Assembly (NCBI GenBank): GCA_027485695.1 | Contig: JAIXQO010000003.1 | Coordinates: 310,001-374,000 of the forward strand | Source: Pseudomonadota bacterium | Lineage (GTDB): Bacteria; Bdellovibrionota; UBA1018 | DNA: 64,000 nt | Direction: 5' to 3' | Shown: one piece after another, positions 50,256 through 58,212 of the stretch | Position numbering within the stretch: position 1 is the first letter of the stretch | How the letters are laid out: each line of letters starts with the position of its first letter | Notes under the pieces: generated by a model | What the model was told of the DNA's origin: nothing | What the model saw: only the letters and a program-made list of their open reading frames with translations | The model's database searches: none | Translations under genes and position numbers: made by a program

Positions 50256-51140
50256 ATGAAGTCCGGAAAACGGTTCTCCAAGATCAACATCGAGATCAGC
50301 AATATCTGCAATCTTCAATGCAGCTTTTGCCCCGAGGTCATTCGCGCCAAGGGTCTGATGGAGACCGATCTGTTCCGTCGCGTGATCGAGCAGGTGTCTC
50401 CGCTAACTGATCAGGTTTGTTTTCACCTGATGGGTGATCCACTCGTTCATCCCAAACTCGAAGAGTTCGTTGCCATTTGCCGCGAGCATTCGGTTCCCAT
50501 CTTCCTGGTCTCAAACGGGGTTCTACTCCGTGAGAAACAGGCAGCGCTTCTGCTGGATCCGGCGTTCCGCCAGGTGAACTTCTCATTGCATAGTTTTGTG
50601 GATAATTTTGGGGATAAAGATCCGACCACCTATCTCGAAAAAATTTTTCAATTCACCGAGCGAGCATTCGAGCAGCGTCCAGACCTGTACATCAACTACC
50701 GACTCTGGAACTTGGGCGAAGCGAGAGGCGAAGACGCCAAGAACCAAGATATACTCGCCCGCATCGAGTCACGGTTCGGCGTGAAACTCGGTAGAGATTT
50801 CGACGTTCGTCTGCAAAAGAGCCATCGAATCAAAAATCGCCTCTACCTTCATTACGATACCGAGTTTGTTTGGCCGTCGTTAGAGTTACCTGTATTGGGC
50901 ACGTCGGGAACTTGTTACGGGCTCTCGTCCCACATCGGAATTTTGATGGATGGAACAGTCGTCCCTTGTTGCCTCGACAAAGAAGGAGCCATTCCGCTTG
51001 GTAAGATCCAAGAACGAGAACTCACCGATATTCTAGCTGACGATCGGGCTCAATCGATCTTGCGTGGATTTCGGGAACGTAAGCTCAACGAGAGTCTTTG
51101 CCAGCGTTGCCAGTACATCGAAAGGTTTGAAACCGCATGA
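50256..51140 (+). CDS. radical SAM/SPASM domain protein
   Basis: This 294-residue protein has the radical SAM cluster motif C18-NLQC22-SFC25 in EISNICNLQCSFC. A C-terminal SPASM-like region follows: GTCYGLSSHIGILMDGTVVP, CCLDKEGAIPLGKI and ESLCQRCQYIERF. SPASM proteins modify peptides, proteins or cofactors using extra Fe-S clusters. No precursor peptide is seen beside it, and it is coupled by ATGA to a GNAT gene. It is about 4.6 kb from the YcaO locus and on the other strand, so a link is not supported. Confidence 0.85.
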   Translation: MKSGKRFSKINIEISNICNLQCSFCPEVIRAKGLMETDLFRRVIEQVSPLTDQVCFHLMGDPLVHPKLEEFVAICREHSVPIFLVSNGVLLREKQAALLLDPAFRQVNFSLHSFVDNFGDKDPTTYLEKIFQFTERAFEQRPDLYINYRLWNLGEARGEDAKNQDILARIESRFGVKLGRDFDVRLQKSHRIKNRLYLHYDTEFVWPSLELPVLGTSGTCYGLSSHIGILMDGTVVPCCLDKEGAIPLGKIQERELTDILADDRAQSILRGFRERKLNESLCQRCQYIERFETA

Positions 51141-51658
51141 ATCAATCGCTCACCATCCGACTTGCACAACCCGAAGATTCGGCCGAACTCTCGCGGCTCG
51201 GTTGGAGAACGTTTTGGACGACGTTTATCGAGTCGAATTCCGAGAGCGATATGCAGGAGTATCTGGAAAAGACCTTTTTCCCGGAAGAGCAAAAACGTGA
51301 AATCGCGGATCCGGACCGAAGAATCTATCTGGCATTTAGCGGTGCCGAAATGGTGGGCTATTTGTACCTGAGGTTCTCTGAACCCCATGCCAGCGTGAGC
51401 GCGAGGGATGCGGTCGAGATTCAGCGGCTCTATGTCGACGAAAAGTTTTTTGGCCGTGGGCTGGCCAAGCAGCTGATGGAAAAAGCGCTGGAGACCTGCG
51501 AGCGGATGGGGCGTCGGACGATCTGGTTAGGCGTTTGGGAAAAGAATTTTCGCGCACAAGCATTCTACAAAAAATGGGGATTTCGTGTCGTGGGCGAACA
51601 AGGGTTTCAACTCGGTTCGGATCTGCAGAGGGATCTTGTTTTGGAACGCGCAGTCTAA
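51137..51658 (+). CDS. GNAT family N-acetyltransferase
   Basis: This 173-residue GNAT protein opens LTIRLAQPEDSAELSRLGWR. The acetyl-CoA-binding motif A is VEIQRLYVDEKFFGRGLAKQ and motif B is FRAQAFYKKWGFRVVGEQ. It overlaps the radical SAM gene by 4 bp, so the two are co-expressed and may act on the same substrate. The acceptor is unknown. Confidence 0.88.
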   Translation: MNQSLTIRLAQPEDSAELSRLGWRTFWTTFIESNSESDMQEYLEKTFFPEEQKREIADPDRRIYLAFSGAEMVGYLYLRFSEPHASVSARDAVEIQRLYVDEKFFGRGLAKQLMEKALETCERMGRRTIWLGVWEKNFRAQAFYKKWGFRVVGEQGFQLGSDLQRDLVLERAV

Positions 51659-53221: not shown

Positions 53222-53428
53222 CGTGAATAAGGTTAACGTCTTGCGCTAAAATGAGACAATTTAAGCTGTATTTAAGATTTCTTTACTCGACGAGTCGCCC
53301 GGGTGGCCGACGAAAATGAGATGACTTTGCGCGTCTTTGGTGATTCATTTTCAGACGGTCAGGTGGGAAATTTACGCGTGGTCGATAAAAAACGAAAAAG
53401 CATTTTTCACGGATTCCAAGAGCCTCCC

Positions 53429-55096
53429 ATGAAGCGGTTGATCGACTTTCTGAGCCCGCTCAGTTGGTTATTTGTCGTCATTGCTGGAAGCGCGCCGTTG
53501 ATCTTTATTCTTGAGCCGAGTCTCAAGGAATATTTCGTCGGCTTTGTAGTTGATACGATCGCGTATTCGATTTTTACGCCTCTCAGCTGGAAGCTTTTTC
53601 AGAAGTTCTACCCCGACACTCGAGTCTACCTAAACGGCTTGTCCGACGATCAGGTCGCTTCGCTCTCGCGAGCCGAGCGGGTTCAGTTGGTCGAGTCTTT
53701 TATGCTCTACCCGAAGCGAGCGGCCCGCCATTCATTTTTTGCGAGCCTCATAAAGGTACTTCCCGTTCAATTGGTCATCGTTTTCTACTGGCAGCATTCC
53801 GTATCGAATTGGACTCAATTCGCGTTGGCATTCGCAAGTTCGCTGACGACCATGACTTATTTTTACGGCGCCATGTTCCTCGAGGCGCATTTCTTTTTGA
53901 GTCGGGAGCTGGCTCGTTTGCATGAGAAGTTTGATTTTTCCGACGCGTTCCGCGATTGTCGCATCGTTGGTTCGAAGCGGGATTTCGAGTTCCAAGAAGG
54001 GCTCGCTCTCAGTCACATTCTCGTGATTTCGATGGGTCTTCAGGTGTTGACGATCTTGGCGCATCATTCCGAAGGTGCGTCGGCTTATGCAAGCAAGTTG
54101 ATCCTCGTGGGCGCCATGAGCCTGATGCTTTTCGGGCGTATCTGGTACCTGGGAACTCGGTTCTCTCTCGGGAGCTTGGATCAGGTGATTTCGCGCATGA
54201 CTGGTTACCGGCCGGAAGAGAACCGGCCGACGCTCGCGCTCTCGTCCGCGTATCATTATGCGCAGTTTTTCAAATCGTTCAACGAGACCACCGAACGATT
54301 GCGGACGATCGAGCGAGAGATGTCGATTCTCGTCTTCCGCGAATCGGATCGGAGTCGGTTTCGCGCGCTGGGAGAGATTTCGGCGCTGGTTGCGCACGAT
54401 TTGAGCGGTCCATTGCATGTGACGCGTTACTGCGCGCAGGAACTCAACGAGGAGTTGGCGGATCATCCCGTCTACGGCAAGTACGTTCAAATGATTCTCA
54501 CGAACTCGGAGCGAGCCAACGACTTGATTCTCGGACTTCGGGCTCGTCTACGGAACGAAAGCTCGAGTTCGCTGAGCTGCCATTTCGCCGAAGCGCACCA
54601 TCACGCGTTGAACGTGCTGAAGACCCAATTCTCTAAAACCGAATTCGATCGTGTGCAGATCGTCTTGGAGCCCGAAGCGTCGAATCTCGAGGTGGGGATC
54701 TCTCGCGTCGATCTGATTCACATCCTGGACAATCTTTATAAGAACAGTCTTGGCAATATGATCGTGTTTCATGTTGAATCACCGGAGCTTCGAATTCGCT
54801 ATCAAGACGGCGCTATTCTCATTCAAGACACCGGCACTGGTTTGAGTCGGGAGCGGTTCGAGTCATTGACTGCTTATCAATTTGAAACTCCCGGTAAGAT
54901 TCAAGTGGGACTGGGATTGAGGCTCACACGACGATTGATCGAAGTGAACGGTGGACAACTCCAGGTGGTTGAACCGGGCAGCTCGGGACAATTGGCGGGC
55001 ACGATCATGAGCCTAAAACTGAAAACGGTGGCCCGCGCAGTGGCTCGGGCGCCTCGCATGGAACTCCGGGAGGAGCCTGTTTATGCTGACTTCTGA
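53429..55096 (+). CDS. membrane-bound sensor histidine kinase
   Basis: The start MKRLIDFLSPLSWLFVVIAG at 53429 (AAGAG upstream) gives 555 residues. A GTG at 53303 would add a hydrophilic leader of 42 residues and cannot be excluded. About six hydrophobic segments fill the first 260 residues. The kinase core follows: H323 in ISALVAHDLSGPLHV, N-box HILDNLYKNSLGNM, and QDTGTGLSRERF with VGLGLRLTRRLIEV. It overlaps the response regulator gene by 14 bp, so they form a two-component pair. Confidence 0.85.
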   Translation: MKRLIDFLSPLSWLFVVIAGSAPLIFILEPSLKEYFVGFVVDTIAYSIFTPLSWKLFQKFYPDTRVYLNGLSDDQVASLSRAERVQLVESFMLYPKRAARHSFFASLIKVLPVQLVIVFYWQHSVSNWTQFALAFASSLTTMTYFYGAMFLEAHFFLSRELARLHEKFDFSDAFRDCRIVGSKRDFEFQEGLALSHILVISMGLQVLTILAHHSEGASAYASKLILVGAMSLMLFGRIWYLGTRFSLGSLDQVISRMTGYRPEENRPTLALSSAYHYAQFFKSFNETTERLRTIEREMSILVFRESDRSRFRALGEISALVAHDLSGPLHVTRYCAQELNEELADHPVYGKYVQMILTNSERANDLILGLRARLRNESSSSLSCHFAEAHHHALNVLKTQFSKTEFDRVQIVLEPEASNLEVGISRVDLIHILDNLYKNSLGNMIVFHVESPELRIRYQDGAILIQDTGTGLSRERFESLTAYQFETPGKIQVGLGLRLTRRLIEVNGGQLQVVEPGSSGQLAGTIMSLKLKTVARAVARAPRMELREEPVYADF

Positions 55097-55817
55097 TCGT
55101 TTGCTCTGGATCCTCGAAGACGATGCGGACAGTCGATTCATACTCGAGGAGTCGCTCGGGATACGTTATCAGGTACGTCTTTTCTCTTCTTTGGCGGAAC
55201 TGGATACGGCGTTGACCGCGGAAGACGAGCGACCATCGCTCTTGATCGCCGATCTCCGGTTGCCCGACGGAACTTTCGTTGAGTTTTGCGCCCGCAAGAA
55301 ACAGCAAGGAGCGCAGCTTCCTCCGTTCGTCGTCGTATCTTCGATGGATGACCTGGATTTCCTGCGCGAGTGTTATCGGCAGGGCGCGCTCGACTATCTG
55401 TCCAAACCTTTTAGCAAAAATGAGCTGATTGCTAAAATTGAGCGCTGGTTGCCGGTGAGCAAAGTGACGCCCGATCCAGCCGCAGGCGTCTTACAGGGCG
55501 GTATCGTGCTTCATTCTCTTAGGCTTCGAGTCGAGGATGCACAAGGTCGTTCTCAGCAGCTCACTTCCAAAGAATATCAAATCCTGACGATCCTTCATCA
55601 GAGCGCCGGATTCGTCTCTCGAGACCTTTTGCAAAGGCGCATTTGGGGAGATGTGAGTGTGGCGGCAAAAACTCTGGACGTGCATATTTTCAATTTGCGC
55701 AAGAAACTCGCGGCGCTCAATCTACGCGTGAACTATCACTCTGATCAGGGGTTTCATCTAGAGGCGGTGACTACGCGATCGGATGGATCCATTCTTCCCA
55801 GCCCGGAGTTGATCTAG
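55083..55817 (+). CDS. OmpR/PhoB-type response regulator
   Basis: This 244-residue protein has a receiver domain with the acidic pocket in LEDDADS, phospho-acceptor D57 in LLIADLRLPDG and K108 in YLSKPF. A winged-helix DNA-binding domain follows (QLTSKEYQILTILHQSAG, KTLDVHIFNLRKKLA). It is the output partner of the preceding membrane kinase. Its 3' end overlaps the end of the YcaO gene by 47 bp on the opposite strand. Confidence 0.92.
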   Translation: MLTSDRLLWILEDDADSRFILEESLGIRYQVRLFSSLAELDTALTAEDERPSLLIADLRLPDGTFVEFCARKKQQGAQLPPFVVVSSMDDLDFLRECYRQGALDYLSKPFSKNELIAKIERWLPVSKVTPDPAAGVLQGGIVLHSLRLRVEDAQGRSQQLTSKEYQILTILHQSAGFVSRDLLQRRIWGDVSVAAKTLDVHIFNLRKKLAALNLRVNYHSDQGFHLEAVTTRSDGSILPSPELI

Positions 55818-56778
55818 ACCAACTGGGATCCATACCAAAGAATAGGCGTTTTTTTTCGGGAATGGATGCTTGTACCACAAATACCTTGCCCTCGAGATGG
55901 GTAGGCGAGAGGTCGATAAATCCTTCGCCTGACAAAATCGGCGCGCTCGAAGGGAGTGGCCGCACCTCTTGAGATGTTCGATCGCCGGCGAGCCAGCGTT
56001 CGATCCGATAGCGTTGGTCGGGGCGACGAAACCAATCCATGTGGAAATCGGGTGTTCCGGTAACAGGAGGATCGTTCTCGGGTAACGGTTCGTCCCAGAG
56101 AAAAGCCATGCGTTGCAACGCCTCTTTTTGAGCCTTGGCGAGCGATGTTTCGAGATCGCTGGCCGCGCTGAATCCAAAAACCACGGGCTGATTCCTCGAG
56201 TTCGGAAAACCGAAAACGCCTCCGACGAATACCGGAGATTCCGGTGCAGAAAACGCGAACGCTTCGAATCGATAACCGCCCCAGGACTCGATTTTAAGTG
56301 GTGTATTGAGACGCCGTGGGGCTATCTCCCCAAACCAGGATCTTAAGACCTGATCGCGTTCCCAGATTTCAAACTCCGCGCCGCGAATTGCTGAAACCAA
56401 GTCGGTATGGGCGGCGATGCCGTTCGAGCGTGACCATCTCCAATGAGGGTCGGAGTCGTCAAATGGAGGGAGGGTCGTTCGTTGATCACTGGCGTTTCCG
56501 CCACGATCGAGCACTCGGAACGAGTGCTGCGGGCCTCGGTCATCCGCTTCGAAAATCGCGAGTCTCTCGAGCAGTTCGAAGTAGGCGCGTACTCGAGCGG
56601 CTTCCCTGGATAAATCGACGGCACTACCGGTGAGAAGCCGTCCGTCTGCACGTTTGGCGGCGATTCCCGCCAAATGCAGGGCCGGGAGATCGATGTTGAG
56701 AACGTCCTCGAATGTCTCGATTTCCGCAGAGCCCGGTGGAAGCGGGTATTGCTGCAATAAGTCCTTCCACGCGATCAT
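55771..56778 (-). CDS. YcaO-domain protein, possible peptide backbone-modifying enzyme
   Basis: This 335-residue protein has the three hallmark blocks of the YcaO ATP-binding fold. GSAVDLSREAARVRAYFELL followed by ER places Glu 68 and Glu 71. SNGIAAHTDLVSAIRGAEFE then IWERD places E137, E140 and R141. SDLETSLAKAQKEALQRMAF is the third block. YcaO enzymes phosphorylate backbone amides to make azolines, thioamides or amidines in RiPPs, or act on RimO-type targets. The protein is shorter than typical azoline cyclodehydratases and lacks their proline-rich C terminus. It overlaps the upstream diiron enzyme gene by ATGA, so it is last in a four-gene operon with a 10-codon peptide gene. Confidence 0.75.
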   Translation of the reverse strand: MIAWKDLLQQYPLPPGSAEIETFEDVLNIDLPALHLAGIAAKRADGRLLTGSAVDLSREAARVRAYFELLERLAIFEADDRGPQHSFRVLDRGGNASDQRTTLPPFDDSDPHWRWSRSNGIAAHTDLVSAIRGAEFEIWERDQVLRSWFGEIAPRRLNTPLKIESWGGYRFEAFAFSAPESPVFVGGVFGFPNSRNQPVVFGFSAASDLETSLAKAQKEALQRMAFLWDEPLPENDPPVTGTPDFHMDWFRRPDQRYRIERWLAGDRTSQEVRPLPSSAPILSGEGFIDLSPTHLEGKVFVVQASIPEKKRLFFGMDPSWSRSTPGWEEWIHPIA

Positions 56779-57446
56779 GCCGGCATTTTCTGCGCCGTTG
56801 AGATCACGCAGTTTTCCAAGAATCCGTGAACGTAGAGTACGGTTTCGTCGAGGGCAAATTTCATCCGTGCCTGGGTCTCGTTGGTGAGATTGAGCGTCGC
56901 AAGCAAGTCGAGCGTTTCCTGGGAGTGATCGGGATCGAGTTCGACGTGATTGCCGATAGCTGTCATGGAGGATCTCGGAATTCCACAGCGTTTTTCTAGC
57001 GCGTCGAGGAATCGAGGTCCCGCGAGCACGGTCATGTACTCGACGAAGAACATGTAAGACAGATAGTTTGCCGCATCTTCGCGGATCGCTCGATCAACGA
57101 AACGAAGGAGCGCCCGGAGGCTTGGGGATAAGTCAGATTCACTTACTTCGGAGGAGAAACCCTGTTTTTTAAGGTCGTTTTTGGCCCATTGATCATGTCC
57201 GGATTCCTCGGGGATCTTGTTTTTCATGAACTCCGCGAGTACGGGCTGACCTTGTTTTTGTGCCACATCATGAGCGAGCTGAAGAAACGGAGGCGTCCAA
57301 GAGAAAAGGAACGAGAGTTGTTTGAGGTAATTCTCGACGTCCATTCTCTGGAGCGTGCCATTCTGAGCGAGGAGCATGAGACGGTTGGTCTCGATGATTT
57401 TCTTGGTAGCGGACTCGGTTTCGGACTTGAGGTATTGGGCGATCAT
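56775..57446 (-). CDS. haem-oxygenase-like diiron oxygenase/oxidase
   Basis: This 223-residue all-helical protein carries the ligand pattern of haem-oxygenase-like diiron enzymes (the group including CADD, UndA and BesC). E81 and H84 lie in IPEESGHDQWAKNDL, E136 in YMFFVEYMTVLAGP, and H167, D171 and H174 in GNHVELDPDHSQE. All six candidate metal ligands are present. Such enzymes oxidise amino acids or fatty acids with O2, and some act in natural-product pathways. Translation is coupled to the YcaO gene. It lies downstream of an attenuator-like hairpin. The substrate is unknown; modification of the 10-residue peptide is my inference. Confidence 0.75.
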   Translation of the reverse strand: MIAQYLKSETESATKKIIETNRLMLLAQNGTLQRMDVENYLKQLSFLFSWTPPFLQLAHDVAQKQGQPVLAEFMKNKIPEESGHDQWAKNDLKKQGFSSEVSESDLSPSLRALLRFVDRAIREDAANYLSYMFFVEYMTVLAGPRFLDALEKRCGIPRSSMTAIGNHVELDPDHSQETLDLLATLNLTNETQARMKFALDETVLYVHGFLENCVISTAQKMPA

Positions 57447-57478: not shown

Positions 57479-57514
57479 AAAACGAGGGGCGGGTCGAGCG
57501 GACGCCGCCCCTCG
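57479..57514 (-). terminator. attenuator-like hairpin between peptide and enzyme genes
   Basis: On the minus strand a perfect 10-bp GC-rich stem (arms CGAGGGGCGG and CCGCCCCTCG, 12-nt loop) is followed by four T. It lies 12 bp after the stop of the 10-codon ORF and 33 bp before the diiron enzyme start. The short T-run suggests partial termination, which would favour the peptide over the enzymes. Confidence 0.65.
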
Positions 57515-57526
57515 GTTAGAAATGGA

Positions 57527-57559
57527 TTACAGGCAGTGTTGGGCGAATTTCTTCTTCAT
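57527..57559 (-). CDS. 10-residue peptide ORF, candidate RiPP precursor
   Basis: ATG at 57559 to TAA at 57527 encodes MKKKFAQHCL. AGAAAGGAG sits 8 nt before the ATG, one of the best ribosome-binding sites in the window. That site overlaps the last codons and stop of the upstream acetyltransferase gene, so translation is likely coupled. A GC hairpin with a short T-run follows. The basic N terminus and the terminal His-Cys-Leu offer a cysteine for a YcaO or diiron enzyme. The size recalls the heptapeptide precursor of microcin C. It could instead be a leader peptide for attenuation. Coding is inferred from the signals, since length gives no support. Confidence 0.5.
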   Translation of the reverse strand: MKKKFAQHCL

Positions 57560-57564
57560 ACGTG

Positions 57565-58212
57565 CTACTCCTTTCTGATGAGTCGAGGTCCATCGCAGAG
57601 CTGATTGAGGAATGTCTCCTCGCACCGCGTATCCAAGTATTTACAAAGTCGAAGCAATGTTCCCCAGCGGTCAGAAGAGTGGTAGCCCGTGGGACGAAAA
57701 CCGCGTTTACTCATATATTCGATCTCGACGTAGTTTCCGGGAGCGACGTCGACTTCGGCACGCAGGACTCCATGACTGCGAAGCACCGGGAAAAGTACGT
57801 CGAGCATGGCTCCTGTAAAACCTTGTCCCTGATGGGAGGGGAGTAGGCCGGATGTTCGAAGGTAGTAGGTGGACCAGTCGAGAGGATTTCCCACGAAAAC
57901 TCCCACAATTTGATCTCCGTCGAAATACGCGAGGAAATCACCCATGATCTCGTAGTAGCGGAGTCGCTGCTCATTCATCGGCTCGACAAAAAATGGATGC
58001 GGGTGGCCGGATCTTAAGAAGATCTCGTCGTAGTGTTTGCCGTAAAAATCAAACACCTCTCGCGCGCTCGATCGGGCGATTCGGAGCGGCGATGTATTTC
58101 CGTTTTTGGAATTTAGCGTGATCGGGAAATGGTTGTTCCAGTCGATGCCGTAGAGCATCTGTGAGCCGTTCCAAGACGCTTGATTATTTTCTCTCTTGAG
58201 TGAAGCGTACAA
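57565..58212 (-). CDS. GNAT family acetyltransferase, first gene of the YcaO operon
   Basis: The start is a TTG at 58212 with AAGGAG 6 nt upstream; no ATG nearby has a comparable site. The product is 215 residues. The C-terminal GNAT core shows YYLRTSGLLPSHQGQGFTGA, an acetyl-CoA loop of Q-x-x-G-x-T/A type, then VLRAEVDVAPGNYVEIEYMS and KRGFRPTGYHSSDRW. The first 100 residues are less conserved. It ends 5 bp before the ATG of the 10-codon peptide. N-acetylation of a modified peptide, or self-protection, are plausible roles by analogy with other RiPP loci. Confidence 0.8.
   Translation of the reverse strand: MYASLKRENNQASWNGSQMLYGIDWNNHFPITLNSKNGNTSPLRIARSSAREVFDFYGKHYDEIFLRSGHPHPFFVEPMNEQRLRYYEIMGDFLAYFDGDQIVGVFVGNPLDWSTYYLRTSGLLPSHQGQGFTGAMLDVLFPVLRSHGVLRAEVDVAPGNYVEIEYMSKRGFRPTGYHSSDRWGTLLRLCKYLDTRCEETFLNQLCDGPRLIRKE

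Follow-up and report, generated by a model that had tools for sequence, protein, structure and literature searches.

The window, a stretch of 64,000 nucleotides, contains a compact gene cassette on the minus strand, arranged in the order GNAT-family acyltransferase, mini-ORF, hairpin, haem-oxygenase-like dimetal oxidase (HDO) and YcaO, and standing tail-to-tail with the genes of a response regulator and a histidine kinase. The mini-ORF (57527–57559, minus strand) has ten codons, starts with an ATG at 57559, ends with a TAA at 57527 and encodes MKKKFAQHCL. It is preceded by the Shine-Dalgarno sequence AGAAAGGAG (57568–57576, minus strand), which lies 8 nt 5′ of the start codon, overlapping the final codons of the GNAT gene. 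Between the mini-ORF and the HDO gene lies a GC-rich hairpin (57483–57514, minus strand), whose 13-pair stem was confirmed by folding; it probably terminates part of the transcripts or marks where the precursor mRNA ends. The original prediction had given the coordinates of the ORF and its stop exactly, the hairpin that it mentioned is real, and the strong, well-spaced ribosome-binding site that it described is indeed in place. An Rfam scan of the window returned one tRNA and nothing else.

Short ORFs (5–25 amino acids) with AAGGAG at a distance of 5–10 nt occurred three times in the window, compared with an average of 1.15 in 20 sequences simulated by a first-order Markov model. The ribosome-binding site of the mini-ORF is mildly unusual and is no proof of a gene by itself. 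ORFs of this kind arise by chance about once per window, which speaks for a chance ORF that happens to carry a good ribosome-binding site; however, the same peptide was found in the same place in 23 loci, so that this reading has next to no likelihood left and was already refuted by conservation. It is because of this conservation, and not because of the ribosome-binding site, that we regard the mini-ORF as a real gene.

The three enzymes of the cassette, all encoded on the minus strand, agree with the claim that the mini-ORF lies near modification enzymes. The standalone YcaO (55771–56778; PF02624, 5.5e-14) appears to be of the azoline-forming type, judging by its nearest solved relatives in profile matches, which indicate homology only: TruD, MJ1094, MusD, LynD and McbD. 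We take TruD, MusD, LynD and McbD to be azoline formers and MJ1094 not to be one. The YcaO motifs SNG..ELxERD..ExxQ are conserved. The HDO (56775–57446; PF14518, 8e-10) has the invariant residues E81, H84, E136, H167, D171 and H174 in the alignment, a set of three histidines and three carboxylates that is predicted to hold the metal and that a review describes as the common HDO ligand set (PMC13108848). Its AF2 model (pLDDT 95) had 3dde, CADD, TenA and UndA as the nearest folds. The same genome carries a second HDO-family gene (L002, G000:C6:868217-868810), with no YcaO or mini-ORF detected nearby. The acyltransferase (57565–58212, with an uncertain TTG start; PF00583, 7e-8) was modelled by AF2 as a generic GNAT fold (pLDDT 83.5), and comparison of the model with the PDB returned many generic acetyltransferases, pointing to no particular substrate. 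Several GNAT homologues have a degenerate acyl-CoA loop motif, and the acyl donor may therefore be unusual. Elsewhere in the window, a radical SAM/SPASM gene followed by a GNAT gene (50256–51658) is apparently unrelated to the cassette.

The conservation of the mini-ORF was examined across related genomes. With the HDO as a query in 143 of these, a 10-codon ORF was present 5′ of the HDO in all six relatives that were checked closely. YcaO alignments were searched across 368 genomes of the phylum, genome contigs (with a narrower alignment), Myxococcota and the small phylum-level group of G369. The search yielded 27 loci with an orthologous YcaO, distributed over Bdellovibrionota, Myxococcota and the third group, that of G369. 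One locus that was cut at a contig end (L077) was left out of the counts, leaving 26 evaluable YcaO loci, and the mini-ORF was present in 23 of them, with 10 codons in 20 loci and 9 codons in three. The claim of a genuine mini-gene, too small for gene finders, was thereby borne out. The 10-residue homologues include MKKKFAQHCL, MRRKFALYSF, MKKRFAQSCI, MRKKYAHASM, MKKQFALICF, MKKRYALVTW, VKKKFAHMSF (with a GTG start), MRKKFALACY and VKKKFACITF, and the 9-residue forms include VKKFALVCF and MKKYGFVTV. The consensus is M/V-K-K-[KR]-[FY]-A-x-x-[CST]-x. The original prediction had pictured a modifiable cysteine at the end of the peptide; the peptide ends in Cys-Leu, so that the cysteine is penultimate and not terminal, while the modifiable character of the position is supported by the occurrence of Cys, Ser or Thr there in all 23 peptides.

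Selection on the peptide sequence was evident from the codons. Ala6 is invariant among the 10-residue forms, while the third base of its codon varies freely, and the pooled pN/pS of the mini-ORF is ∼0.40. The two paralogous copies in one genome (G730, loci L100 and L101) encode identical peptides and differ by four synonymous and no nonsynonymous changes. The comparison of synonymous and nonsynonymous changes, which had been proposed along with the prediction, therefore favours a coding sequence, and across the 23 loci the mini-ORF encodes a peptide under purifying selection. In the locus comparison, a strong Shine-Dalgarno sequence preceded nearly all homologues, and clear hairpins followed the stop codon in most loci, the hairpin sequences being unrelated to each other. 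The three ORF-less loci (L086, L097 and L099), where a search for a diverged mini-ORF found none, are likewise without a neighbouring HDO and GNAT.

A degenerate 33-nt pattern of the mini-ORF was matched 19 times in the 368 genomes, 11 times at the cassette and eight times elsewhere, and a reversed control pattern was matched 14 times (counted by hand from the table). These counts correspond to a chance rate of ∼0.02–0.04 per genome, versus 11 cassette matches among the 16 genomes with YcaO. In the G369 group, the pattern was matched at the cassettes of G369, G727 and G730 (two copies) and once elsewhere, in G724, where YcaO had no match. A search of a plasmid collection with YcaO gave no matches.

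A short ORF with a strong Shine-Dalgarno sequence, followed by a GC-rich hairpin ahead of enzyme genes, can also be understood as an attenuator, in which the mini-ORF would encode a leader peptide for HDO–YcaO and the position of the ribosome would decide whether the hairpin terminates transcription. The arrangement in other genomes argues against this. Both cassettes of G730 (L100 and L101) have the mini-ORF on the opposite strand, divergent from HDO–YcaO, and in another locus (L087) it comes after YcaO and GNAT. The amino-acid sequence, moreover, is kept while the codons drift, and no single regulatory codon is repeated in a row. The attenuator is therefore very improbable, and we rejected it mainly on the strength of these three loci.

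YcaO is present in every locus by design of the search, and the remaining gene set was compared among the 23 loci with a mini-ORF. We observed the HDO in 15 of these and a B12 radical SAM enzyme (B12-rSAM) in seven, never both together; one of the two was thus found in 22 loci, and the remaining locus is a 3-kb contig. HDO-type and rSAM-type loci are scattered over the YcaO tree, and this mixing suggests that the two enzymes were swapped more than once, many branch supports being modest. The B12-rSAM of one locus (L072) was closest to the RiPP families ApyD and rSAM_ocin_1 and that of another (L073) to other B12-rSAM families, in both cases below the cut-off. The same GNAT family adjoins the mini-ORF in 17 of the 23 loci, and in L078 a different GNAT takes that place. 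Modification enzymes are thus conserved with the precursor, as is characteristic of RiPPs. In the neighbourhood comparison, no exporter, peptidase, RRE or E1/ThiF partner was common to the loci nearby, nor did the window's own cassette genes include an E1/ThiF-like partner or RRE, and no dehydrogenase was seen near the cassette. Operon-wide conservation, the exchange of HDO for B12-rSAM and the linked sensor kinase described below were not part of the original prediction.

A RiPP precursor is by far the best reading of the mini-ORF, because of its conservation and of the gene set that accompanies it. We estimate at roughly 80% the probability that it encodes a RiPP precursor which is 9–10 residues long in its entirety and has no separable leader, with the enzyme steps and the kinase link that are proposed below. 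Against this reading count the absence of a shared RRE, E1/ThiF partner, exporter or peptidase near the loci, the three YcaO loci with no mini-ORF, the restricted occurrence of the kinase outside Bdellovibrionota and the degenerate acyl-CoA loop of several GNATs. Among the known systems, the LAP/TOMM azoline RiPPs, with YcaO enzymes of the TruD, LynD and McbD type, provide the closest matches to this YcaO. By homology, the cassette has a putative cyclodehydratase (PF02624) and, in 23 of 23 peptides, a candidate Cys, Ser or Thr substrate residue. It differs from LAP/TOMM loci in the 9–10-residue precursor, in the penultimate position of that residue and in the lack of an E1/ThiF partner, RRE or dehydrogenase among the genes compared. 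Streptamidine-type RiPPs are similar in having a standalone YcaO and unannotated short precursors, but these precursors, from Actinobacteria and Firmicutes, are 31–89 residues long and lack the motif of the mini-ORF (PMC8442711). Biarylitides share with the present cassette an ultra-short precursor gene that is missed by gene finders, in their case one of 18 bp for 5 amino acids; their biaryl cross-link is made by a cytochrome P450, and they have no YcaO, HDO or sensor kinase (PMC8708641, PMC13417212). Their pentapeptide MxYxH was not found here, where the peptides have 9–10 residues and another motif, and no P450 was present among the cassette genes tested.

Microcin C is produced from a 7-codon gene, and the enzyme MccB adenylates the C-terminal Asn of its peptide. 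The original prediction had drawn this comparison, which holds for gene size and fails for the chemistry: no MccB-like ThiF enzyme lies near, no mini-ORF homologue ends in Asn, and the enzymes present are YcaO, HDO or B12-rSAM, and GNAT. The microcin C-like reading was rejected on these grounds. An antimicrobial peptide in a broader sense would agree with the size of the product and with the combination of a peptide and modification enzymes; however, we consider it improbable, as no conserved immunity or export gene is nearby, an adenylating enzyme is missing and a dedicated sensor kinase is found instead.

The neighbours on the plus strand were also conserved. The OmpR-type response regulator (55083–55817; PF00072, PF00486) overlaps YcaO tail-to-tail by 47 bp (55771–55817), and similar convergent overlaps were seen in many Bdellovibrionota loci. 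The histidine kinase (53303–55096, with a conserved start near 53429; HATPase_c, HisKA) carries an N-terminal six-TM sensor, whose 270 residues form three pairs of hydrophobic segments with no periplasmic domain according to hydropathy and alignment, and which had no match in Pfam. Among the 368 genomes of the phylum, the sensor was found in all 16 genomes with YcaO and in 4 of the 352 without it (Fisher p = 1e-24, shared ancestry uncorrected). It lies on a different contig from YcaO in G132 and G189. In two of the four sensor genomes without YcaO, the contig breaks off at the kinase or the response regulator; the other two (G002 and G025) have an HK–RR pair and no cassette. These orphan six-TM pairs and a second kinase copy in G187 are possible solo receptors (L148, L147 and L150 in all).

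Outside Bdellovibrionota, the sensor was detected in one of ten YcaO-carrying genomes tested (G369), and its absence from the other nine indicates that the kinase is not needed for biosynthesis. Three Myxococcota cassettes have instead a large Ser/Thr kinase-AAA-GAF-histidine kinase directly after YcaO, as in the Pkinase-AAA-GAF-HisKA proteins of L066:6156-10954 and L068:6089-11005. With this distribution, the six-TM kinase is best described as a companion of the cassette in particular lineages, as would be expected of a receptor or regulator but not of a component of biosynthesis.

The absence of the kinase from most cassettes of other phyla also agrees with another reading, in which the product is a small redox cofactor or metal-binding molecule and the kinase merely regulates its synthesis. 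PqqA is converted to PQQ with the help of an enzyme of haem-oxygenase-like fold and a radical SAM enzyme, and the present combination of a short peptide with either an enzyme of this fold or a radical SAM enzyme resembles such pathways. We nevertheless regard a PQQ-like product as rather unlikely, since neither a dehydrogenase that would depend on it nor a gene for metal uptake is conserved in the neighbourhood, and since Ser and Thr freely take the place of the cysteine, an odd pattern for a metal ligand.

For the RiPP reading, the following pathway is proposed. The enzymes probably recognise the peptide by its basic, aromatic N-terminus, M-K-K-[KR]-[FY]-A. The standalone YcaO would use ATP to cyclise the penultimate residue (Cys, Ser or Thr) with the carbonyl that precedes it, removing water and forming an azoline; we propose this step because the penultimate residue is always one of these three, matching YcaO heterocyclase chemistry. 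The calculated mass of unmodified MKKKFAQHCL is 1232.65 Da, and one azoline would lower it by 18.01 Da. A second step would be carried out by the HDO, as in the window locus, or by the B12-rSAM in other lineages, and the GNAT probably attaches an acyl group to the N-terminus or to a lysine. The hairpin 3′ of the stop codon probably raises the precursor mRNA above the enzyme mRNA. In Bdellovibrionota, the putatively secreted product probably serves the linked six-TM kinase and response regulator as a ligand, or belongs to their feedback loop.

Peptide quorum sensing of the agr/com type and the CqsS/LqsS kinases offer systems for comparison. As in these systems, one locus holds a peptide gene, modification enzymes, a multi-TM kinase and a response regulator, the last two being candidate partners of the peptide here. 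Unlike in these systems, there is no AgrB-like processing or export protein here (no such protein was conserved near the cassette loci), the sensor of the kinase is different and the hosts are Gram-negative. A peptide-based quorum sensing system in Gram-negative predatory bacteria is a tentative idea, which we hold at somewhat less than even odds: YcaO, HDO or B12-rSAM, and GNAT would turn the 10-residue precursor into a membrane-permeable heterocyclic signal that is read by the dedicated six-TM kinase, and the solo kinases of some relatives would listen in.

A literature search of incomplete coverage found no published description of the mini-ORF cassette. The mini-ORF very likely codes for the starting material of a peptide-derived molecule that is apparently undescribed and perhaps serves as a cell-to-cell signal. 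The RiPP family would have a precursor of 9–10 residues, too short for ordinary gene finders and probably also for the tools that mine for precursors, and two unrelated oxidative enzymes, the HDO and the B12-rSAM, substitute for each other in its one pathway. If the kinase link is true, the cassette would open a peptide signalling system to direct testing in Bdellovibrionota, whose cell-to-cell signals are poorly known.
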